Of a stretch of 26,421 bases of DNA, positions 1 to 24,543 are shown in pieces. The position numbers and the translations under genes were made by a program. The DNA is from a virus: positions 1 to 26,421 of IMG/VR virus record IMGVR_UViG_3300025286_000115. The stretch is one strand, 5' to 3'. Position 1 is the stretch's first letter, and each line of letters opens with the position of its first letter. The notes beneath the pieces are model-generated. The model did not search any database. It was not told the origin of the DNA and worked only from the letters and a program-made list of their open reading frames with translations.

Positions 1-384
1 ACTAAGGCCAGAAAAAAGTTTAATTCTTGTAGGTTTACCTAATTTAGCTTTAAGTCCCTTCATAGCGCCTTGGCTCATCGCCGCAGTTTTCCCTAGTTTA
101 CCATAAGACTGCGTAAGACTATTTACTGCCGCTTTTGCACTAGTATCTAATTGTTTCTTTGCAGATTCTTGATGTGCCTTCAGCCTAGCTTGCGCCTTTG
201 CCAAACTCTTTGTGGCGTTATTGACGTTGTTTTTAGCAGCTTGAACACTTTTCTGATTAAGCTGCGAATACATCTTTGAGGCAAAGCCCCCTACTAAGGC
301 ACCTGCTGCATTAAATGCCTTCGGCGAAGGCATAGCCAAACCTACGGCTACTCGTGCGGCAAATACTTGGCCTGCGAAACCCAT
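1..384 (-). CDS. Tape measure protein, N-terminal 128 residues (runs off the window)
   Basis: The frame is open from an ATG at 384 to base 1 without a stop, so only the N-terminus is here. It begins MGFAGQVFAARVAVG and has a Gly/Ala-rich hydrophobic stretch (about residues 8-38) followed by a Lys/Ala/Gln-rich region (about 45-85) with coiled-coil character. Tape measure proteins set tail length and typically follow the tail-tube gene and the chaperone ORFs, which is exactly the order here: the preceding ORF ends 4 bases upstream. The identification rests mainly on that gene order and on the helical Ala/Lys composition. A different tail protein cannot be excluded, since the diagnostic length and C-terminal regions lie outside the window. 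Confidence 0.72.
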   Translation of the reverse strand, partial: MGFAGQVFAARVAVGLAMPSPKAFNAAGALVGGFASKMYSQLNQKSVQAAKNNVNNATKSLAKAQARLKAHQESAKKQLDTSAKAAVNSLTQSYGKLGKTAAMSQGAMKGLKAKLGKPTRIKLFSGLS

Positions 385-388
385 ACTA

Positions 389-703
389 TCACGTTCTTAT
401 TTGTTGTTTCAATTCAGCCACTGCGTCTTCAGTTTTCACTTGTTTACCCATTAAAGAATCATATTTTCTTCTTTGGGCCATATATCTACTCCAATCGCTA
501 CGAACGTTAGGCCTATGTTTAGCCAAATCGTTTATATCTTTCGCTTCATACCCATCCATGGAATGTAAGAGGTTATATTCTTGACAGGCTGCTAAAATGC
601 CTTCAAGTTCCATTCTGGGCGTTCGTTTTATTTCTTCCCATGTCATATTTGTTTCCTTCATCAAGGGAACATATAGGGTTACAGCCTCAGGACTGTTCGT
701 CAT
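389..703 (-). CDS. Tail assembly chaperone, downstream (T-like) ORF, probably made as a -1 frameshift fusion
   Basis: A 104-residue ORF beginning MTNSPEAVTLYVPLMKE and ending in a charged helical tail (EDAVAELKQQIRT). Its ATG overlaps the stop of the preceding ORF as TGATG. It lies between the tail-tube genes and the tape measure, the place of the lambda G/T chaperone pair. It is in the -1 frame relative to the upstream ORF, and a slippery heptamer sits just before the upstream stop. The ORF can therefore be read either from its own ATG by coupling or, more likely by analogy with tailed phages, as the C-terminal half of a fusion of about 250 residues. The segment MTWEEIKRTPRMELEGILAA resembles the short domain that recruits assembly partners in such ORFs, but I see no family-defining motif. 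The role is inferred from position and frame. Confidence 0.75.
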   Translation of the reverse strand: MTNSPEAVTLYVPLMKETNMTWEEIKRTPRMELEGILAACQEYNLLHSMDGYEAKDINDLAKHRPNVRSDWSRYMAQRRKYDSLMGKQVKTEDAVAELKQQIRT

Positions 704-1140
704 CAGAGAAGAAAATTTTCTCGGCTCTCCTGTTCAATACCCATTATGTCATTAGAAATAGCGTATCTCAATGTGGTTGGTAAAAGAGGCCAATGTTCCC
801 TTGTAATAGCGGGTCCATCAGGCATTTTTTCATTAGCCTTTTCTAACATAGCTAATATTCTGTTACCACCGATTTCGGTATAATAAGCCATTTTTTCGTC
901 TTCAGTGGCTCTATCTGAAAGAGGCCTAAATCTAGGTTCTTCCTTTTCCACTAACTCGCAAAATTGGTAGTTCACTACCTTATCTCTAAACTCTATTTCT
1001 CCTTGCTGCACTTCATCAGTGAGTGCAACTAGGTCATCCATTGTCCAACTTTCTGTTGAAGGAGTTTCCACTACTTCTTCGACAACTTCTTCTTTTTCTT
1101 CAACAACTTCTTCGTTATCTTTGTTTTCGTCTTCTGTCAT
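703..1140 (-). CDS. Tail assembly chaperone, upstream (G-like) ORF
   Basis: A 145-residue protein with a very acidic, Glu/Val-rich N-terminus (about residues 1-30) and a helical body ending in RENFLL. The ATG at 1140 has a strong ribosome binding site, AAGGTGAT, five bases upstream, which fixes the start. It follows the tail-tube genes and precedes the T-like ORF and the tape measure. By analogy with lambda gpG it should coat the tape measure during tail assembly and be absent from the virion. The last codons GAA AAT TTT CTT CTC TGA contain the heptamer A-AAT-TTT, so part of the product is likely extended into the next ORF. Family assignment is by context, not by sequence motif. Confidence 0.75.
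   Translation of the reverse strand: MTEDENKDNEEVVEEKEEVVEEVVETPSTESWTMDDLVALTDEVQQGEIEFRDKVVNYQFCELVEKEEPRFRPLSDRATEDEKMAYYTEIGGNRILAMLEKANEKMPDGPAITREHWPLLPTTLRYAISNDIMGIEQESRENFLL
712..718 (-). other. Putative programmed -1 ribosomal frameshift site (A-AAT-TTT)
   Basis: Read on the minus strand the heptamer AAATTTT fits X-XXY-YYZ in the zero frame of the upstream chaperone ORF, three codons before its TGA (705-703). A -1 slip continues as Ser-Ser-Leu and enters the downstream ORF in frame at its Met, giving a fusion of 143+3+104 = 250 residues. An internal Shine-Dalgarno-like AGGAG lies at 727-731, eight bases upstream, the type of stimulator seen at dnaX. A weak hairpin (ACAG 696-693 with CTGT 684-681, plus CC/GG) lies downstream. 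The geometry matches the conserved G/GT arrangement of long-tailed phages. Confidence 0.7.
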
Positions 1141-1204: not shown

Positions 1205-1798
1205 CTACAACTCAGCAGCAGTAAGGTCAGTAGTGACAGCTGCATTAGTAACCTTAGGAGTAATGTAAGTCATAAACTCCATGGTTTCTTCTGACGTGCC
1301 GTCTGCATTAATAGAGACAGTATGTCCCTGAACGCAGCAACCACGTACACTAAATACATCCGTGCTTCCACTTAAAACTACATGAATACGATATCCAGTA
1401 TCAATGGTAGGTTCTTGCAGAGATGAAATCTCTGAGGAGTTCGCACACCCTTGCCTGCCACCATTATTGAAAATAGCGTCCCATGTTATGTCGTTCTTCT
1501 TGCGCGTGATAGACACCGTAGTCTCTTTTTTAATCTCAGCCTTTGTGATGTTTCTAAAACCTACATAGGTAATGTCTTCATCCACGGCCCCGATTGATAA
1601 ATCAACTCCAGTAATATCTGCTTCTGCTGTTCCTGCGGAACCTGTGCCCAAGGGAACTGCAAAATTAAATGCGCCAGCTGTTCCAGAAGTAGCGTTGAAA
1701 CCTACGGCTCCAGCCGCTGAAACTCCTGCATAGCTCTCTGCTTGCGTGTCTTCAGTTGTAATATAAACTGAACAATCTCTTCCTAAAAAATATGCCAT
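1205..1798 (-). CDS. Tail tube (major tail) protein paralog 2
   Basis: A 197-residue protein beginning MAYFLGRDCSVYITTEDTQ. It shares three blocks with its upstream neighbour (1810-2529): the N-terminal YFLGRD-x-SVYI; the middle TGVD-x-SIGA-x-DEDITY-x-G followed by SxTRKK and TWD-x-IFN; and the C-terminal CVQGHTVSINADGTSEETME. The regions between are unrelated in length and sequence. Such beta-rich proteins of about 200 residues placed before the chaperone pair and tape measure are tail-tube subunits. The two copies may form different parts of the tail, or one may be a minor tube protein. The start is supported by GAGGT nine bases before the ATG at 1798. A strong hairpin follows the stop. Confidence 0.78.
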   Translation of the reverse strand: MAYFLGRDCSVYITTEDTQAESYAGVSAAGAVGFNATSGTAGAFNFAVPLGTGSAGTAEADITGVDLSIGAVDEDITYVGFRNITKAEIKKETTVSITRKKNDITWDAIFNNGGRQGCANSSEISSLQEPTIDTGYRIHVVLSGSTDVFSVRGCCVQGHTVSINADGTSEETMEFMTYITPKVTNAAVTTDLTAAEL

Positions 1799-1809
1799 AT
1801 TTAATTACC

Positions 1810-2529
1810 TCAATAGTCTGCCAAGACAGTTTCTGTTACGTATAAGGTATCCCCGTCTTTTCCGGTACCCATAGCTCCTTGCGTGATAAATTCCATAGTT
1901 TCCTCACTTGTTCCATCAGCGTTAATACTTACTGTATGACCCTGAACTAAACAATTGGGGAATGCTACGCTTTCTCCTCCATCACCAGTCTTAAGAACAA
2001 CAAAAATACGATACCCGCCTTGAACAGTGGTAGCATTATTATAATCTTTAGGATTTGCTAGTCCATCTGCAATCTTGGGTGCCGCATCAGTACTGTTACC
2101 ATAATCACCCGCTAATCCCCAGCGAGCACCATGTTTACCAGCAGCGTCTTCAGCTTTTGCTGCCAATGTAGGACCATTGAAAATCATGTCCCACGTATTG
2201 TTCTTCTTTTTTCTGGTGAGGGATACGGTGTATTCATTTTTAACTTGAACCTTACCCACACCTTTCTGTCCTATATAGGTGATGTCTTCATCAGTAGCAC
2301 CTATACTTACATCTACACCAGTCACATCACTGATAGCCGTCCACGCAGAAGTTTCTACACCTAAATATAGGCTTTGCGCGAAAACGTCAATACCAGTAGT
2401 AGAACCTGAATCCACAGTGCAGACCGTCGTGCCACTAGCGGTACCGCTCAGGACACCGACGTCCATGTTTTGTGTATTCGATTCAGTACCTATATAGACA
2501 CTTACATCTCTTCCTAGGAAATATACCAT
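1810..2529 (-). CDS. Tail tube (major tail) protein paralog 1
   Basis: A 239-residue protein beginning MVYFLGRDVSVYIGTESNTQ, homologous over three blocks to the next gene (1205-1798), with a longer middle section (about residues 128-172, including KHGARWGLAGDYG). The C-terminal block QGHTVSINADGTSEETMEF is shared almost residue for residue. It is the first gene after a dedicated TATA box with a leader of about 50 bases, and GAGGT sits eight bases before the ATG. A separate strong promoter is what one expects for the most abundant tail protein. It probably polymerises into the tail tube around the tape measure. Assignment rests on gene order, size and paralogy. Confidence 0.78.
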   Translation of the reverse strand: MVYFLGRDVSVYIGTESNTQNMDVGVLSGTASGTTVCTVDSGSTTGIDVFAQSLYLGVETSAWTAISDVTGVDVSIGATDEDITYIGQKGVGKVQVKNEYTVSLTRKKKNNTWDMIFNGPTLAAKAEDAAGKHGARWGLAGDYGNSTDAAPKIADGLANPKDYNNATTVQGGYRIFVVLKTGDGGESVAFPNCLVQGHTVSINADGTSEETMEFITQGAMGTGKDGDTLYVTETVLADY

Positions 2530-6641: not shown

Positions 6642-9600
6642 TCATAGTTGTATCCAAACCGGCCAGTAATAATCGGTGCCGCCAACGTTAGCAGAAAGGT
6701 ATCCCTCAGGAACCATACCTACCCCAGCCATGTCAAAGAATTCTACTGGACTAACACCACCCCATGTTACTGGAACTAACCCCACCAATGCAGTACCACC
6801 AGTGCCAGCATGTGACATACCAGCGCCACCACCGCCCGTAGTTCCCTGAGTACCTTGAGTTCCTGTAGTTCCTGTAGTTCCAGTTGTTCCCTGAGTTCCT
6901 GTAGTTCCGGTTGTTCCCTGAGTTCCAGTTGTTCCGGTTGTTCCCTGAGTTCCAGTTGTTCCCTGAGTTCCTGTAGTTCCGGTTGTTCCTTGGCTTCCAT
7001 CCAGTCCTTTAATACCCTGAATACCTTGAATACCTTGAGCTCCAGCACCACCTCCACCGGAGACTCCCTGAATTCCCTGAGTTCCTTGAGTACCAGCAGA
7101 ACCATCGTCACCAGTTCTAGTGAAATGATAAACAATATCTTCTCCATCACTAAATGGTGGGTCTGAAAATCGAGCTACAGGAGTAACATCTATCTTGAAA
7201 TAGCCAGTAGCTTCTGTGACTCCATCTACTTGGCAAATGAATAATGAACCATCAGTTGAAGTTCTTGATTGAAATACTAAATGGCCCTCAACACTTGCAG
7301 TACTATCATCCCAGCTTCTCATAAAGAGTTGCATATCTGTTCCATACTGGTCTTCATCATCAATGTATGCTTTTGTTATAGAAAGTGAAGTAGCATGATT
7401 AAATCTAATTACACCATCACCGGGGTCCGAATCAGTAGTCGATGTACTGAATTCATAATTAACTCCTCCTCTATATCCAGCAGTACCAGTCGTTCCTTGG
7501 GTTCCTGTTCCTGTAGTTCCCTGAGTACCCTGAGTTCCAGTTCCACCAGATGTTCCCTGAGTTCCTTGTGTCCCTGCTCCTGTAGTTCCCTGAGTACCTT
7601 GAGTACCAGTAGTTCCTTGGGTTCCTGCTCCTGTAGTTCCCTGAGAACCAGCTGGACCTATATCACCACGTATACCTTGAATACCTTGTGTTCCTTGAGT
7701 TCCTGCTCCTGTAATTCCCTGAGTTCCTTGTGTCCCTGCTCCTGTAATTCCCTGTATTCCTTGTATACCTTGCGTTCCCTGTGTTCCTGCTCCAGTTATT
7801 CCCTGAATTCCCTGAGTTCCTGTAGTTCCCTGAGTTCCCTGTGTTCCTGTAGTTCCCTGTGTACCCTGTGAACCCGCAGGTCCGGGCGCTCCGTCGGCAC
7901 CCTGAGTTCCAGCACCAGTCGTTCCTTGAGTTCCCTGACTACCCGGAGTACCCAAAATACCCCGTGTTCCTTGAATACCTTGTATTCCTTGAGTTCCCTG
8001 TGTTCCAGTAGTTCCCTGTGCTCCAGTTATTCCCTGAATTCCTTGAGTGCCCGTTATACCTTGTGTTCCTTGAGTTCCTGTTCCTGTAATTCCTTGAATA
8101 CCTTGAGTTCCTTGAGTACCAGTATCACCTTTAATACCCTGAGTTCCTTGAGTACCAGTAATTCCTTGAATACCTTGAGTTCCTTGAGTACCAGTATCAC
8201 CTTTAATACCTTGAGTTCCTTGTGTGGAGTTGTCTGCACCATCCGTCCCTTGGATTCCCTGAGTTCCCTGAGTTCCTGTAGTTCCGGTTGTTCCCTGAGT
8301 TCCTGTAGTTCCGGTTGTTCCTTGAATTCCTTGTATTCCTTGAATTCCTTGCGCACCCCTTATACCCTGAATTCCCTGAGTTCCTGTAGTTCCCTGAGTT
8401 CCCTGTGTTCCTGTAGTTCCCTGTGTGCCAGTAGTTCCTTGAATTCCCTGAGTACCAGTAGTTCCTTGAATACCTTGAGTTCCTTTATCACCAGTTCTAC
8501 TAAAGGATAAAGTAATTCTTTCACCATTACTAAATGGTGGATTACCTGAGCCAACTAATGGGTCAACATCTATCTTGAAATAGCCTGAAGCCTCTGTAAC
8601 TGAATCTACCTCCATCGATGCGTATGATGTATCACTACCATCAGCAGATTGTATGATTATAACACCTTCTACTGTACTAGATGAATCGTCCCATGTACGC
8701 ATCCAAGCTTGTTGGTCATTACCGTCTTCGTCGGTGTCATCAATAAATATTTTAGTAACACTAGCAAATGTAGTGTGATTAAATCTAATGTCCCCAGCGC
8801 CGGGGTCGGCATCAGTGGTGGAAGTATCAAATGTCCATGCTGTTCCACCTCTATAACCTGTAGTTCCTGTAATTCCTTGTATTCCTTGAGTTCCTTGAGT
8901 ACCAGTAGTACCTTGAGTTCCCTGTGTTCCTGTAGTTCCTGTAATTCCTTGTATTCCTTGAGTTCCTTGAGTACCAGTAGTGCCTTGAGTTCCCTGTGTT
9001 CCAGTAGTTCCTGTAATTCCTTGTATTCCTTGAGTTCCTTGAGTGCCTGTATCACCGGTATCACCCTTGATGCCCTGAATACCCTGAGTTCCTTGAGTAC
9101 CAGTAGTACCTTGAGTTCCCTGTGTTCCAGTAGTTCCTGTAATCCCTTGTATTCCTTGAGTTCCTTGAGTACCAGTAGTACCTTGAGTTCCCTGTGTTCC
9201 AGTAGTTCCTGTAATTCCTTGTATTCCTTGAGTTCCTTGAGTACCAGTAGTACCTTGAGTTCCCTGCGTTCCCGTATCACCCTTTATGCCCTGAATACCC
9301 TGAGTTCCTTGAGTTCCTGTCGTTCCAGTTATACCTTGGATACCTTGAGTTCCTTGAGTACCAGTAGTGCCTTGAGTTCCCTGTGTTCCAGTAGTTCCTG
9401 TAATTCCTTGGATACCTTGAGTTCCTTGAGTACCAGTGGTTCCTTGAGTTCCTTGAGTACCAGTAGTTCCTTGAGTTCCTTGAGTACCAGTAGTTCCTTG
9501 AATACCTTGTATTCCTTGAGTTCCTTGAGTTCCCTTATCACCAGTTCTAGTAAATTCTAGGACACATTGCTCTGCCGAAGAAAATGGTGGGTCACCTGAA

Positions 9601-12479
9601 CCTACTACTGGAGTAACATCTATCTTCCAGTAGCCTGTAGCTTCAGTAATTCCTGTTACCTGCATCGAAGCATATGAAGCATCCGAACCATCTGCCGACT
9701 GTATTATTATAGTACCTTCAATGGTACTAGTAGAATCATCCCAAGTTGCATACCACGCTTGCTGGTCAGTACCATCCGCGTCTACGTCATCTATATATAG
9801 TTTAGTTACAGAAGCAAAAGTTCCGTTGTTTAATCTAAAGTCGCCCGCGCCGGGGTCTGCGTCTGTTATAGTATTATCGAAGTTATATCTAGTTCCCCCT
9901 CTTATTCCGTCAGCTCCTTGAGCCCCTTGTGAACCACCAGTTACAGTACCCTCTGTTCCTTGTATACCTTGTATACCTTGCGTTCCTTGTAAACCTTGAA
10001 TACCTTGTGTACCTTGAGTTCCCTGTGCTCCAGTCGCACCTGTAATTCCTTGAGTTCCTTGAGCGCCCGTTATACCTTGAATACCTTGAGCTCCCGTAAT
10101 TCCTTGAATACCCTGAGCTCCTGTATCTCCTGTCGTTCCTTGAGTTCCCTGAGTGCCTTGAGCGCCCGTTATACCTTGAATTCCCTGAGTTCCCTGAGTT
10201 CCTGTATCTCCTGTCGTTCCTTGAGTTCCCTGAGTGCCTTGAGTTCCTGTCGTTCCAGTTATACCTTGGATACCTTGAGTTCCTTGAGCACCCGTTATAC
10301 CTTGTATTCCTTGAGTTCCTTGAGTACCAGTATCACCTTTAATACCCTGAATTCCTTGAGCACCAGTAGTTCCCTGAATACCTTGTATTCCTTGAGTTCC
10401 TTGAGTACCAGTAGTTCCTTGAATACCTTGTATTCCTTGAGTTCCTTGAGTACCAGTATCACCTTTAATACCCTGAATTCCCTGAGTTCCCTGAGTTCCC
10501 TGTGCTCCAGTCGTTCCTTGAGTTCCTTGAGTACCAGTAGTTCCCTGTGCTCCAGTCGTTCCTTGAGTTCCTTGAGTACCAGTAGTTCCTTGTATTCCTT
10601 GAGTTCCTTGAGTACCAGTAGTTCCTTGTATTCCTTGAGTTCCCTGTGTACCCGTAGTTCCTTGCGTACCCTGAGTTCCTTTATCTCCAGTTCTACTAAA
10701 TTCTAAAATACATTCTTCTGCATTAGCAAAAGGAGGATTAGCAGACCCAACAACAGGAGTAACTGTAATCTTATAATATCCTGTCGCAGCCGTTACAGCA
10801 GTTACTTGCATCGAAGCATATGAAGCATCAGAACCATCTGCTGATTGTATTATTATAGTACCTTCTACAGTACTACTAGAGTCGTCCCACGTATCATACC
10901 AGTCCTGCTGGTCTGTACCATCCGCATCGACATCATCTATATATAGTTGTGTAACAGAAGCAAACGTTCCGTGATTTAACCTGAATACTCCCGCGCCGGG
11001 GTCCGCATCGGTAGTCGTAGTCGAGAAGTCATATCTAGTGCCACCTCTTATACCCTCAGTTCCTTGAGTACCAGTAGTTCCTTGAATACCTTGTGTTCCT
11101 TGAGTTCCCTGTGTTCCAGTAGTTCCTTGAATTCCTTGAGTACCAGTAGTTCCTTGAGTTCCTTGAGTACCAGTAGTTCCTTGAATACCTTGTATTCCTT
11201 GAGTTCCCTGTGTTCCAGTCGTTCCTTGAATTCCTTGAGTACCATCTGTACCTTGAGTACCAGTTGCACCTTGAGTTCCTGTTATACCTTGGATACCTTG
11301 AGTTCCTTGAGTACCCGTAGTCCCCTGAGTTCCTGTAGCTCCTTGAGTACCAGTAGTTCCTTGAATACCTTGTATTCCTTGAGTTCCTTGAGTACCATCA
11401 GTTCCCTGAGTTCCTGTTGTACCTTGAATACCTTGAGTTCCTTGAGCACCAGTAGTTCCTTGAATACCTTGGATACCTTGAGTTCCCTGTGTACCAGTAG
11501 TTCCTTGAGTTCCTTGAGCACCAGTAGTTCCTTGAGTTCCTTGAGCACCAGTAGTTCCCTGTGTACCTTGAGTACCATCTGTACCTTGAGCACCAGTTAT
11601 ACCTTGAGTTCCCTGAGTGCCCTTATCTCCAGTCTGGACAAAGGAAATTACGCAATCGTCGCCATTAGTAAAATTGTCGTTATGGTCTATATAATCTACT
11701 TGTACTTCTTCATAAACGTTAACTCCCGTGCCCCCAGCTACATTAGCACCTGTAATATCAAATATCACCCATACAGCAGAATCAGTAGCTTTACTTATCT
11801 TTATGTGCCCGCGCGTAGCACTATCACCATTATCTAAAGTATCGTTCCATGCACTTACATCATCACTATTTATATCATAGTCGGATATACCCACCTTTGT
11901 TATTAGAGTATAATCAGGGGGCCCAGAAACGGGCACTGCAACATTAAATCCAAAATTAGTTTGGCCCGGTGAACCAGCAGTAATATCAAAACTACTATAA
12001 TTAAATTCTTGGCTATCGCCTCCGAATATTCCTCTCGTTCCTTGTACTCCTTGTGTGCCTTGAGTACCCTGTATACCTTGAGTACCCTGTATACCCTGTG
12101 TGCCTTGAGTACCAGTAGTTCCTTGAATACCTTGTATTCCTTGAGTACCCGTAGTTCCCTGCGTCCCAGTAGCTCCTTGAGTTCCTGTAGCACCTTGAGA
12201 GCCTGTAGTTCCTTGTGTACCTTGAGTTCCCTGAGCAGCTACCGCGCCCGCAGTACCTTGAACACCTTGTGTGCCATTCGTACCTTGTATACCTTGTGTA
12301 CCTTGAGTACCTTGAGCCCCACCAACTCCAGTTAAAGCAATTCTTACATCAGGAGTGTTGGTATTTTTTAAAGTTAGTTTTTTATTAGTTGAATTCCAAG
12401 TAGCGTCATATAGATAGGAACGCCAAGCTACCGGAATTGCCTGTTTAGTTTTTGACCTTAACGCTTTAGTTCCCCTCAT
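6642..12479 (-). CDS. Giant collagen-like fibre protein with five beta-rich domains (1945 aa)
   Basis: The N-terminal 50 residues (starting MRGTKALRSK) are followed by hundreds of uninterrupted Gly-X-Y triplets, mostly GTQ, GIQ, GTT and GAQ, with almost no proline. The triplets are broken by five domains of about 115-130 residues near positions 150-281, 477-596, 858-981, 1208-1330 and 1670-1790. Domains 2-5 share DADPGAG (or SDPGDG), IDD-x-DxDG-x-DxQ and TWDDS motifs; all five end in TGDKG or a close variant. The C-terminal 65 residues after GGGGAG are globular (GTDYYWPVW) and may trimerise or bind receptor. Collagen-like triplets form trimeric rods in many viral fibres. The gene sits between the capsid gene and the connectors, not beside tail-tip genes, so it may be attached to head or neck. 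The start follows AAGG; the next gene overlaps or closely follows. Confidence 0.88.
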   Translation of the reverse strand: MRGTKALRSKTKQAIPVAWRSYLYDATWNSTNKKLTLKNTNTPDVRIALTGVGGAQGTQGTQGIQGTNGTQGVQGTAGAVAAQGTQGTQGTTGSQGATGTQGATGTQGTTGTQGIQGIQGTTGTQGTQGIQGTQGIQGTQGTQGVQGTRGIFGGDSQEFNYSSFDITAGSPGQTNFGFNVAVPVSGPPDYTLITKVGISDYDINSDDVSAWNDTLDNGDSATRGHIKISKATDSAVWVIFDITGANVAGGTGVNVYEEVQVDYIDHNDNFTNGDDCVISFVQTGDKGTQGTQGITGAQGTDGTQGTQGTTGAQGTQGTTGAQGTQGTTGTQGTQGIQGIQGTTGAQGTQGIQGTTGTQGTDGTQGTQGIQGIQGTTGTQGATGTQGTTGTQGTQGIQGITGTQGATGTQGTDGTQGIQGTTGTQGTQGIQGIQGTTGTQGTQGTTGTQGIQGTTGTQGTQGTQGIQGTTGTQGTEGIRGGTRYDFSTTTTDADPGAGVFRLNHGTFASVTQLYIDDVDADGTDQQDWYDTWDDSSSTVEGTIIIQSADGSDASYASMQVTAVTAATGYYKITVTPVVGSANPPFANAEECILEFSRTGDKGTQGTQGTTGTQGTQGIQGTTGTQGTQGIQGTTGTQGTQGTTGAQGTTGTQGTQGTTGAQGTQGTQGIQGIKGDTGTQGTQGIQGIQGTTGTQGTQGIQGIQGTTGAQGIQGIKGDTGTQGTQGIQGITGAQGTQGIQGITGTTGTQGTQGTQGTTGDTGTQGTQGIQGITGAQGTQGTQGTTGDTGAQGIQGITGAQGIQGITGAQGTQGITGATGAQGTQGTQGIQGLQGTQGIQGIQGTEGTVTGGSQGAQGADGIRGGTRYNFDNTITDADPGAGDFRLNNGTFASVTKLYIDDVDADGTDQQAWYATWDDSTSTIEGTIIIQSADGSDASYASMQVTGITEATGYWKIDVTPVVGSGDPPFSSAEQCVLEFTRTGDKGTQGTQGIQGIQGTTGTQGTQGTTGTQGTQGTTGTQGTQGIQGITGTTGTQGTQGTTGTQGTQGIQGITGTTGTQGTQGIQGIKGDTGTQGTQGTTGTQGTQGIQGITGTTGTQGTQGTTGTQGTQGIQGITGTTGTQGTQGTTGTQGTQGIQGIKGDTGDTGTQGTQGIQGITGTTGTQGTQGTTGTQGTQGIQGITGTTGTQGTQGTTGTQGTQGIQGITGTTGYRGGTAWTFDTSTTDADPGAGDIRFNHTTFASVTKIFIDDTDEDGNDQQAWMRTWDDSSSTVEGVIIIQSADGSDTSYASMEVDSVTEASGYFKIDVDPLVGSGNPPFSNGERITLSFSRTGDKGTQGIQGTTGTQGIQGTTGTQGTTGTQGTQGTTGTQGIQGIRGAQGIQGIQGIQGTTGTTGTQGTTGTTGTQGTQGIQGTDGADNSTQGTQGIKGDTGTQGTQGIQGITGTQGTQGIKGDTGTQGTQGIQGITGTGTQGTQGITGTQGIQGITGAQGTTGTQGTQGIQGIQGTRGILGTPGSQGTQGTTGAGTQGADGAPGPAGSQGTQGTTGTQGTQGTTGTQGIQGITGAGTQGTQGIQGIQGITGAGTQGTQGITGAGTQGTQGIQGIRGDIGPAGSQGTTGAGTQGTTGTQGTQGTTGAGTQGTQGTSGGTGTQGTQGTTGTGTQGTTGTAGYRGGVNYEFSTSTTDSDPGDGVIRFNHATSLSITKAYIDDEDQYGTDMQLFMRSWDDSTASVEGHLVFQSRTSTDGSLFICQVDGVTEATGYFKIDVTPVARFSDPPFSDGEDIVYHFTRTGDDGSAGTQGTQGIQGVSGGGGAGAQGIQGIQGIKGLDGSQGTTGTTGTQGTTGTQGTTGTTGTQGTTGTTGTQGTTGTTGTTGTQGTQGTTGGGGAGMSHAGTGGTALVGLVPVTWGGVSPVEFFDMAGVGMVPEGYLSANVGGTDYYWPVWIQL
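6840..12330 (-). repeat. Collagen-triplet coding repeats (9-base and 18-base units)
   Basis: The DNA consists of long runs of near-identical nine-base units encoding Gly-Thr-Gln or Gly-Ile-Gln, arranged in 18-45-base higher-order repeats, interrupted by the five non-collagen domains. Synonymous codon changes (GGTACT, GGAACT, GGCACT) keep the copies from being identical. The units are in frame and of constant period, so recombination between them would change fibre length without breaking the frame. Long Ser/Leu/Thr/Cys-rich open frames on the opposite strand are by-products of this repeat. Confidence 0.85.
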
Positions 12480-19976: not shown

Positions 19977-20295
19977 TCTTTTCCTCTTCGTGTTCGTGTG
20001 TGTCTTTCCCGTTACGGAACGTACCCTTACGGGTCTGTTCTATCTGACTGTTCTGTTGAGCAGTCCATAATTCTAATACCTTATATATAATAACGAGGGC
20101 GGGTGAACCTATAATCAGAAGAACTGATTTATATGATTCTATATCTTGTACTACTTCAGGGTGGTTAAAGGCCATCGTTACTAAGAAGATAGATAAGCCT
20201 ACCCAAGCCATCACAACTGGGGCTGCTACTATTATCATCATGAAGTTAGCAAAATTACCATCTGGTGAAATCGCATCGGGTTTATCATTATTCAT
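19969..20295 (-). CDS. Two-span membrane protein, possible holin (108 aa)
   Basis: Two hydrophobic segments are visible, about 18-43 (MMIIVAAPVVMAWVGLSIFL) and 59-78 (VLLIIGSPALVIIYKVLELW), followed by a charged tail (KGTFRNGKDTHEHEEEKNE). Two spans, about 100 residues and a strongly charged C-terminus are the general features of class II holins. The gene overlaps the upstream surface protein as ATGA and the downstream coiled-coil microprotein by eight bases. A holin in an archaeal virus would serve exit by a mechanism not known to me. A membrane scaffold role is also possible. The assignment rests on topology only. Confidence 0.55.
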   Translation of the reverse strand: MNNDKPDAISPDGNFANFMMIIVAAPVVMAWVGLSIFLVTMAFNHPEVVQDIESYKSVLLIIGSPALVIIYKVLELWTAQQNSQIEQTRKGTFRNGKDTHEHEEEKNE

Positions 20296-21167
20296 GCTGG
20301 TGCCTCCACCCTTATCATGGGAATATCAAATTGCTGCTGGAATACATAATCCTCAGATTCCGCATCCCATACAAGCAATGCTACCCACATGGACCATGTA
20401 CCATTTGTTTCGTTGAGTTCCTCGTAAGTGAAGTTCAACCAGTGGTTGTCCCAATCCATACCATTGACGGTCATGTATAAGTCAGTCCAGTTATAATCAC
20501 CTGATTCTGCGTGCCATACGTCTACATAAAGTAGTACAGATGTATTAAAATCGTAACAATCTGTGTCTATGTCTGTTAGTACAGATATACCATCAGCTTC
20601 GGGGTCTACCCAGAAAACAGATGCATTATCCAACTCTTCGTTATACCACCCCGGATAAAAATGTACAGATGTATGATTACCGTGTTCTTCCTCATACTCA
20701 TCTTCGTAATCGCATGAACCATCATCTTCAGTAGCCTTATCATCGTAATTGTTAGCTTCCATATCCATACAACCATAGATAGCTGCGGTTTCATTCGCAG
20801 TACCATTAGGGTTGTCAGTTATGACTACACAACGGCCATCATCGTGCGTAGCATTCACCTGATAGTTTTCAGCTTCAGGATTAGTGCATCCATATACAAC
20901 TACCAGAAACGTGCAACTACCATCTTCAAAAGTTGCATCAGCATTGTAATTGGTCGCCTCAGGGTCCTTGCAGCCACCGATGGGTCCTGTATCTTCGCCA
21001 TTGAAATAGTCCTGTATAATTGTTAAATTAGCTCCACCACTAAGTAATGCAAGCATTAGAATGGTTATTATAGCGCCAATGCGCTTACCAACAGAGGTTT
21101 CCCCCAGCTTGTCAGCAGCTTTGCCAACAACTTCAAAGAGACCCTCATCCTCGTCAGGAGAGTTCAT
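20292..21167 (-). CDS. Membrane-anchored protein with three calcium-type GC-DPEA-NY-DDGSC repeats
   Basis: A 291-residue protein. A polar N-terminus precedes one hydrophobic anchor (about 29-51, RIGAIITILMLALLSGGA). Three copies of a 21-residue repeat follow at about 65-85 (GCKDPEATNYNADATFEDGSC), 93-113 and 132-152, each with two cysteines and acidic loops, as in thrombospondin-3-like or marine DSL-type repeats. The remaining part (170-291) is acidic, Trp/Tyr-rich and beta-like (LLYVDVWHAESGDYNWTDLY). Many N-x-S/T sites are present, so it is probably outside the cell or virion and may be glycosylated. Its leaderless promoter implies separate control. Such repeats are frequent in Poseidoniia surface proteins, which suggests host origin or mimicry. 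Attachment, exclusion or adhesion are possible roles. Confidence 0.72.
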   Translation of the reverse strand: MNSPDEDEGLFEVVGKAADKLGETSVGKRIGAIITILMLALLSGGANLTIIQDYFNGEDTGPIGGCKDPEATNYNADATFEDGSCTFLVVVYGCTNPEAENYQVNATHDDGRCVVITDNPNGTANETAAIYGCMDMEANNYDDKATEDDGSCDYEDEYEEEHGNHTSVHFYPGWYNEELDNASVFWVDPEADGISVLTDIDTDCYDFNTSVLLYVDVWHAESGDYNWTDLYMTVNGMDWDNHWLNFTYEELNETNGTWSMWVALLVWDAESEDYVFQQQFDIPMIRVEAPA

Positions 21168-22185: not shown

Positions 22186-22974
22186 TTAATATACTCCTGT
22201 TATATTTGTATTGTCATCATTCGCATCTTCGGTATCGAAGAAGAAAATTTGAAATAGTCTATCATTGTCAATAGCATCTCCAAAATATTGGGATGCGGCA
22301 TGGATTAATCTAGCATCAAATATCATTAATCTATTATAAACATTCCCTATAGTATCTACTTTTTCAAATGGGGTCTCATCAAAGAAGTTCTCTTTAAACA
22401 TAGTCCAACCTTCCATTTCTCTAACTGAGTTTACTTTAGTTTCTTTATGTCTATATAGAGAAGTACCACATTCAGGTGGAGCATCGGGTGTAAGATAAAT
22501 CATCGCCGCCCATTGCTGAGTATCCGCGTGTATTACAAAAGGGTCTTCCGCCATACAGTGTTGAAATACTCCATTGGTTTGGTAGTCCCATCCACCAATC
22601 TCTGTACCTTCTTTCATTTTACTTCGGAGTAAGCTTTCAAATTCTTTCTTTACTCCTTTGAAGTGTTTATGTTCTAATGTTCTATGTCCCACGGCACCGT
22701 GCTCTCCTCGTGGAACAAAGTCACCACTCATTGCATAATCTCTAACTGCGTCTGGGTCATCATAAAAATTGTCTACCACAATAATTGACGGCATCCTTTT
22801 TGTGGGATGTACATCTTTTACCGATTCTTCTAATAGCTCTTCTATACTCATGTCTTCCAGTTTAGTCTTCATCTTCTGGGATTCCTTATATTCTTTTACT
22901 GTCATTCCTAAGTCCTTCATTTCTTTATAATCTTCTCGGGAAATATATACTGGTTCAGGCATTCCCGGTATCAT
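22186..22974 (-). CDS. 2OG-Fe(II) oxygenase-like protein (DUF6445-type)
   Basis: A 262-residue protein. The first 60 residues are helical and charged (DYKEMKDLGMTVKEYKESQK). The conserved part starts at IIVVDNFYDDPDAVRDYAM and holds the double-stranded beta-helix motifs: H149-x-D151 in FVIHADTQQWAAMIYLTP, then GTSLYRHKE, the distal H225 in RLIHAASQYFG, and R239 in DNDRLFQIFFF. HxD...H plus an Arg is the iron and 2-oxoglutarate binding set of this superfamily. The DUF6445 relation is from memory of that family (FYxDPxxVRxYA). Related proteins occur in marine phages; the substrate is unknown. Here it lies between TPR and nuclease genes and may modify a protein or glycan. GAGGA seven bases before ATG 22974 supports the start, which overlaps the TPR gene by 20 bases. 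Confidence 0.75.
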   Translation of the reverse strand: MIPGMPEPVYISREDYKEMKDLGMTVKEYKESQKMKTKLEDMSIEELLEESVKDVHPTKRMPSIIVVDNFYDDPDAVRDYAMSGDFVPRGEHGAVGHRTLEHKHFKGVKKEFESLLRSKMKEGTEIGGWDYQTNGVFQHCMAEDPFVIHADTQQWAAMIYLTPDAPPECGTSLYRHKETKVNSVREMEGWTMFKENFFDETPFEKVDTIGNVYNRLMIFDARLIHAASQYFGDAIDNDRLFQIFFFDTEDANDDNTNITGVY

Positions 22975-23625: not shown

Positions 23626-24543
23626 TTATATCACGAATCCTTGCGATTTTGCATAAGTTTCATAAGGGCTATCAGGTATGGGGTCTATACCATTCTCACA
23701 CCGCATACACATATCATATGTAGTATTGGGTGGGGGAAGTATATCATCATACTCTTCTGTATATAGGTTTCCTAAAATCTCTTCTAAATTATAATCCATA
23801 CAGCATAAAGATACTTCTCCATTAGGTAACAAAATATTATGGTAAAGGTCTTCTATACACCCGCATGTCTTTTCTGTATTATGGAGAATAGATTTGAATC
23901 TGTCCCATACTTCTCTAACTTCAGGTTTGAGAGCTGCTTCTCCTAGAAGATTTCCAGCTCTGTGCCACATTTCATATTTATTAACTGTCCTATCAGGAAA
24001 GATAGGTTCTACTTCCTCATGCACTGTCCCCATGGACATTGTCATGAAATTATTAATATTAGCAGCTTTAATCGCCCAGTATACTTGAATGAGCGTCTTA
24101 TTTACAGGATGCTTAGCTAACCTCTCTAAGTCAGGTAAATGCAGGGTAAACCCCCCATTAGGGCCCCCTACAAAAGGAATGTCCTTTATTCTATCAACAT
24201 CTTTAAGAGTCATCCCTACAGCTGTAGTAAACACTGATATAGGATGTCCTTGCTCATGAGCATAAAGCAGCATGTCTGTACACTTCTTATTTAACCATGG
24301 TTCAGTAAACCCTGAAAAGGTTATCCTAATCTCTTTAGGAAGTTTATCTATTACCATCTTGAAATCCTCGAGACTCATATATCTCTCCTTTTCTGTGGTA
24401 AACTTTTCTTCGTTCCATACTTTCTGGAGAACTCTTTGAGGACAGAAGACACAATCTACGATACATCCTACCTTAGGAATTGATGTAGTTATCTCTAAGG
24501 TAGGCCATTCGGTAATTTTCCAGTAGTCCTTCATTTCTTCCAT
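23626..24543 (-). CDS. Radical SAM enzyme with SPASM-like C-terminal cysteines
   Basis: A 305-residue protein. The N-terminal strand LEITTSIP leads into C27-IVD-C31-VF-C34, the CxxxCxxC site that binds the [4Fe-4S] cluster and SAM. GFTEPWLN at about 78 matches the GGEP-like position for the SAM amino group. The C-terminal region holds CGC (about 226/228), CCMDY (about 246/247) and CMRC (about 279/282) together with LLPNGEVSLCC and ILGNL, the usual context of SPASM or twitch auxiliary clusters. Such enzymes modify peptides, carbohydrates or nucleotides; viral copies are rare. It overlaps the GH130-like gene by 13 bases, and the TPR gene follows after two bases. The substrate cannot be read from the sequence. 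Confidence 0.85.
   Translation of the reverse strand: MEEMKDYWKITEWPTLEITTSIPKVGCIVDCVFCPQRVLQKVWNEEKFTTEKERYMSLEDFKMVIDKLPKEIRITFSGFTEPWLNKKCTDMLLYAHEQGHPISVFTTAVGMTLKDVDRIKDIPFVGGPNGGFTLHLPDLERLAKHPVNKTLIQVYWAIKAANINNFMTMSMGTVHEEVEPIFPDRTVNKYEMWHRAGNLLGEAALKPEVREVWDRFKSILHNTEKTCGCIEDLYHNILLPNGEVSLCCMDYNLEEILGNLYTEEYDDILPPPNTTYDMCMRCENGIDPIPDSPYETYAKSQGFVI

Follow-up and report, generated by a model that had tools for sequence, protein, structure and literature searches.

A frameshift joining two tail genes is reported as conserved in long-tailed phages, with lambda G/GT as the type case (Xu, Hendrix and Duda 2004, cited in PMC7230728; described in PMC5009743). A -1 tail-gene frameshift has been proposed from sequence for HVTV-1, HCTV-1, HCTV-2 and HCTV-5 (PMC5009743, PMC8211752) and for Hardycor1, with the site G_GGA_AAT (PMC7911831). 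A +1 tail-gene frameshift has been proposed for the HF1 group (PMC7230728) and HSTV-2 (PMC5009743, PMC8211752). In cellular archaea, Sulfolobus fucA1 undergoes -1 recoding (PMC8211752); it is an enzyme gene unrelated to the tail-gene pair considered here. That pair lies in the virus record IMGVR_UViG_3300025286_000115, a 26.4-kb stretch of DNA referred to below, at its whole length, as the window. Two overlapping open reading frames (ORFs) on its minus strand, termed G and T after lambda, very probably encode a tail-assembly-chaperone pair of the lambda G/GT type made by programmed -1 ribosomal frameshifting. A first-pass annotation of this DNA had called -1 frameshifting little documented in archaeal viruses, which stands for experiments only, as earlier work had put forward such shifts for the tail genes of several haloarchaeal viruses (PMC5009743, PMC7911831, PMC8211752).

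As in lambda G/GT, two small overlapping ORFs immediately precede the tape-measure gene, with T in the -1 frame and a slippery heptamer close to the end of G, and the fusion is predicted to be the minor product. Unlike lambda, the site is A_AAU_UUU, the family carries Shine-Dalgarno (SD)-like signals upstream and stem-loop signals downstream, and searches by sequence and by fold detected no known chaperone resembling G or T. The minus-strand junction reads ...CAG GAG AGC CGA GAA AAT TTT CTT CTC TGA-TG..., with two sense codons separating the heptamer from the zero-frame stop. The -1 frame of the T ORF is open from about position 733. Its presence at the junction is not a matter of chance: in frame, A_AAT_TTT turns up once among the window's 8,130 ORF codons and 28 times among the 122,199 of related contigs, some of the listed ORFs being spurious. 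The heptamer, its frame near the G stop, the AGGAG ending eight bases before it, and the -1 downstream ORF with its TGATG overlap had all been placed correctly in the first-pass annotation (Table 1).

Most ribosomes would read G to its stop, giving a short G-like protein of 145 amino acids. A minority would shift one base backwards at A_AAU_UUU, where tRNA-Asn would re-pair to AAA and tRNA-Phe to UUU, and continue in the -1 frame. The predicted product is a 250-amino-acid fusion consisting of G through Phe143, Ser-Ser-Leu, and the 104-amino-acid T part (junction ...ENF-SSL-MTNS...). The fusion presumably works together with the tape-measure protein ahead of tail-tube polymerisation. In the window virus, pairing of AGGAG with the anti-SD of the translating ribosome probably promotes the slip. 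In other lineages, part of the SD role is probably filled by a stem-loop that starts about 5-6 nucleotides (nt) 3' of the site. The slippage, its rate, the roles of the stimulators and the chaperone function are all predicted from sequence.

We gathered relatives by profile searches, down to about 45% protein identity, and obtained a comparison set of 61 distinct 200-nt junctions. These junctions are mutually related, so the counts that follow are not of independent events; a tree and thinning address the kinship in part. In all 61, T lies in the -1 frame and a shift-prone site stands 0-3 codons before the zero-frame stop, while one further contig has T in the +1 frame. This alignment of homologues, which the first-pass annotation had suggested as a check, strongly supports its proposal of a programmed -1 frameshift in a G/GT-like layout. 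The site is A_AAT_TTT in 51 junctions, A_AGT_TTT in five, G_GAT_TTT in three, and C_CCA_AAC and A_GTT_TTT in one each. The C_CCA_AAC of contig L051 is a different canonical site. A_AGT_TTT has at least three separate origins on a tree of G and T from which the heptamer codons were left out. No junction among the 61 encodes the same amino acids with AAC and TTC codons at the site.

Forty relatives were aligned by codon to examine synonymous variation. The Glu, Asn and Phe columns of the heptamer had no synonymous differences, against 187, 271 and 321 pair differences expected from pooled codon frequencies. The Asn and Phe columns are the most telling because GAA is also preferred elsewhere. The codon before Asn varies (GAA, GCA, GTA, ACA, TCA), with the wobble A retained in each case. 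In G_GAT_TTT the peptidyl-site (P-site) codon GAT is preceded by G, and overall the X of the heptamer equals the first base of the P-site codon in 60 of the 61 junctions. This rule fits re-pairing of the P-site tRNA; constraint on the protein would not produce it.

The alternative that survives best, which we still judge very unlikely, is that T is a separate protein made by termination and reinitiation at TGATG, with no frameshifting. A TGATG overlap is a classic coupling signal, and an ATG at the T start is retained in most lineages. Reinitiation cannot account, however, for a heptamer that is invariant while amino acids change, or for substitutes such as C_CCA_AAC. It is at odds as well with the -1-frame stop found directly before the heptamer in 11 of the 61 junctions, where a shift further upstream is impossible, and with T sequences that have no start codon. 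In L051, L068 and L131 the stretch from the site to the conserved T core holds no ATG, GTG or TTG, which leaves the frameshift as the only route to T; in L066, L067 and L161 a GTG is the sole candidate start. Moreover, about 23 nt separate AGGAG from the T ATG, a distance too great for it to initiate T. Termination-reinitiation could still add some free T to the products of the frameshift.

The bacterial dnaX -1 frameshift combines an SD sequence, the heptamer A_AAA_AAG and a stem-loop. Like dnaX, this family has an SD-like element about 8-10 nt upstream, a canonical X_XXY_YYZ heptamer and, in many lineages, a stem-loop about 5 nt downstream. Unlike dnaX, the heptamer is another one, and the SD part is the only one that exceeds chance in the window. 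Among the six members of the window clade (L001, L002, L003, L011, L014 and L015), the seven codons ending with the heptamer are identical (7/7) in all 15 pairs, compared with a synonymous identity elsewhere of mostly 0.49-0.63 between sub-lineages. SD pairing and folding were tested in 38 thinned lineages against random synonymous recodings. The excess of anti-SD pairing was confined to the six codons before the site (mean z -1.18; 8 of 38 lineages, versus 0-1 elsewhere in G), and the AGGAG of L001, which has the same sequence as the window here, gave p=0.007. Before gene starts in these contigs AGGAG was counted 54 times against 9.9 expected, again with some spurious ORFs in the list, and the host ribosome can therefore be expected to recognise this motif. 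The dnaX-like internal SD stimulator put forward in the first-pass annotation thus appears, from this comparison, to hold for the window clade and to reflect a family-wide trend, without being universal.

A second signal, absent from the earlier annotation, lies downstream and is as prominent across the family as the internal SD. The 45 nt just after the site showed an excess of folding (mean z -2.0), with 18 of the 38 thinned lineages at p<=0.05; five other stretches of T had 1-6 such lineages. Strong stems begin about 5-6 nt after the heptamer, for example in L005, L019, L046 and L068. RNAalifold found no consensus RNA structure on the ungapped downstream alignment because the stems differ between lineages, hence the tests of each sequence against its own synonymous recodings. 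We also observed that in many relatives (e.g. L016-L063) the T codons TCG CCT GAT GCG (Ser-Pro-Asp-Ala), about 20-33 nt after the heptamer, have a synonymous variation ratio of 0.51-0.68. This is lower than for the majority of Ser, Pro and Ala codons in the rest of T and fits an inner hairpin, UCGC-CUGAU-GCGG.

Slippage of the RNA polymerase instead of the ribosome could also make a fusion, and the site does hold runs of four A and four T. We consider transcriptional slippage even less likely than reinitiation. Runs of four A or T are below the usual threshold for it, C_CCA_AAC, G_GAT_TTT and A_AGT_TTT break the A run while keeping the codon-phase rule, and the upstream SD and downstream fold are signals that act on ribosomes. 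That the heptamer is kept by a Glu-Asn-Phe protein constraint or by codon bias, with the frame relation inherited by chance, is the least credible alternative: Glu, Asn and Phe are indeed conserved residues of G, with GAA the favoured codon throughout, but Asn and Phe use both codons elsewhere in G and T, the wobble A persists in sequences with Ala, Val, Thr or Ser in place of Glu, and the quite different codons of L051 again form a canonical heptamer. A sequencing error or pseudogene was rejected, as the arrangement recurs in some sixty contigs.

Several observations weigh against programmed -1 frameshifting of a chaperone pair. Only partial P-site re-pairing is possible at the five A_AGT_TTT, three G_GAT_TTT and one A_GTT_TTT junctions. 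The T ORF of the window has an ATG. The hairpin downstream of the window site folds no better than chance (in L001, z -0.57 and p 0.26), and a stem-loop about 5-9 nt downstream, found in about half of the relatives, is not present in the window. G and T had no significant match to a named chaperone family in Pfam, PHROGs or PDB profile searches, and Foldseek with their AlphaFold models, which are fair (pLDDT 81 and 85), returned no hit at E<=0.001. Tail assembly chaperones diverge fast. The chaperone names given to the putative G-like and T-like proteins come from position, synteny and the frameshift.

One contig departs in frame. In L045 (= L142; IMGVR_UViG_3300030329_002466, L074:5009-5675), T follows in the +1 frame after GCC TCT TTT CGT, which also counts against the -1 explanation. 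As a +1 motif, TTT-CGn is known in viruses of eukaryotes, and HF1-group haloviruses conserve it (PMC7230728); the TCT_TTT_CGT of L045 resembles the conserved TTT-CGC of that group. Unlike the HF1 group and HSTV-2, the +1 arrangement here is that of a single contig within an otherwise -1 family. Its zero-frame tail of eight codons is longer than all others, so an assembly indel is possible as well as a switch to +1 frameshifting, and a search for a second virus like L045 found none.

The gene directly 3' of T is a tape measure, as the first-pass annotation had it. In contig L001, identical to the window over G and T, it is complete at 1682 amino acids and matches PF10145 (1.7e-24) and the PHROG tape measure (1.3e-31). 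The two genes upstream of G are paralogues with 46% identity and had no family hit; their tail-tube label, also given in that annotation, comes from position and paralogy only. Contigs L004 and L005 have the same gene order around G and T.

Table 1. Features of the G/T junction and its neighbours in the window.
Feature	Position	Strand	Remark
G-like upstream tail assembly chaperone ORF, 145 aa (putative)	703..1140	-	Zero frame, stop TGA 705-703; 35-member family A3
Slippery heptamer A_AAT_TTT	712..718	-	Zero frame of ORF 1140-703; identical in 51/61 distinct junctions
Seven codons CAG GAG AGC CGA GAA AAT TTT	712..732	-	Every base identical in six relatives of the window clade
Internal Shine-Dalgarno-like AGGAG	727..731	-	8 nt 5' of heptamer
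TGATG stop/start overlap	701..705	-	Zero-frame stop and possible T start
T-like downstream ORF, 104 aa (putative)	389..703	-	-1 frame; 34-member family A4
Weak hairpin ACAGUC-CUGA-GGCUGU	681..696	-	15 nt 3' of heptamer; -6.4 kcal/mol, z 0.03
Tape-measure gene start	1..384	-	Cut by window end
Two paralogous genes	1205-1798 + 1810-2529 (1205..2529)	-	Probable tail-tube proteins by position

The window had been described as coming from a probable archaeal virus, a label for which we found no archaeal marker gene and no host hit. PCNA, MCM, TFIIB, RadA, thermosome and sigma-70 genes were all absent from the 19-20 related records searched. The family-B DNA polymerase (PolB) of a relative, contig G001, is nearest archaeal PolB structures in the PDB; phages carry similar family-B polymerases. 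RecU-like, class II ribonucleotide reductase and non-homologous end joining ligase-like genes also occur in relatives and are not decisive for the host domain; the same holds for counts of upstream SD and TATA-like motifs. No relatives of T or of the terminase were found in GTDB genomes. Searching a phage collection with T and the capsid protein gave no relatives, and the terminase had remote matches only. For HVTV-1, HCTV-1, HCTV-2, HCTV-5 and Hardycor1, where the -1 frameshift was likewise inferred from sequence, the hosts are known.

Other features of these contigs were noted. The minus strand of the window at 6642-12479 encodes a 1945-amino-acid collagen-like protein, probably a tail fibre, with GTQGTQG and GIQG repeats and several interspersed, similar globular domains; the gene yields many spurious ORFs on both strands. 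At 20292-21167 (-) a 291-amino-acid protein is encoded, likely a surface protein; its N terminus carries an apparent hydrophobic segment, and it has three repeats of the CxxPEAxNYxxxATxDDGSC type. The minus-strand ORFs at 23626-24543 and 22186-22974 encode a radical S-adenosylmethionine (SAM)-like protein (weak NCBIfam hits; relatives in L086 and L089) and a nearby look-alike of 2-oxoglutarate-Fe(II) oxygenases. Both ends of contig G001 (81,208 bases; L069:28-1975 and L072:16686-19007) encode near-identical but non-identical copies of genes for a nuclease-like protein and proteins of 316/320 and 107/108 amino acids, through either terminal duplication or assembly of two strains.

The comparative evidence for a tail-gene frameshift is unusually clean for an uncultured virus family, one whose capsid and T proteins stand apart from the phages searched. 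Beyond the shifts already proposed, the family contributes another site, a far larger number of sequences, and position-specific signals that point to stimulators of two kinds. A wider reading is possible but doubtful: that the hosts are marine archaea and the family is a first comparative record on a large scale of three-part -1 frameshifting in the style of dnaX (internal SD, heptamer and stem-loop) on archaeal ribosomes, with lineages trading SD for stem-loop, losing the separate T start and once switching to +1 at UCU_UUU_CGU with the fusion kept. In this family G and T can be annotated as one recoded gene, and it supplies natural variants of the shift site and its stimulators for parallel measurement. 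Should the host prove archaeal, -1 frameshifting in archaea would become directly testable. The family details how a frameshift is kept during evolution while its stimulators, and perhaps its direction, vary within one family.
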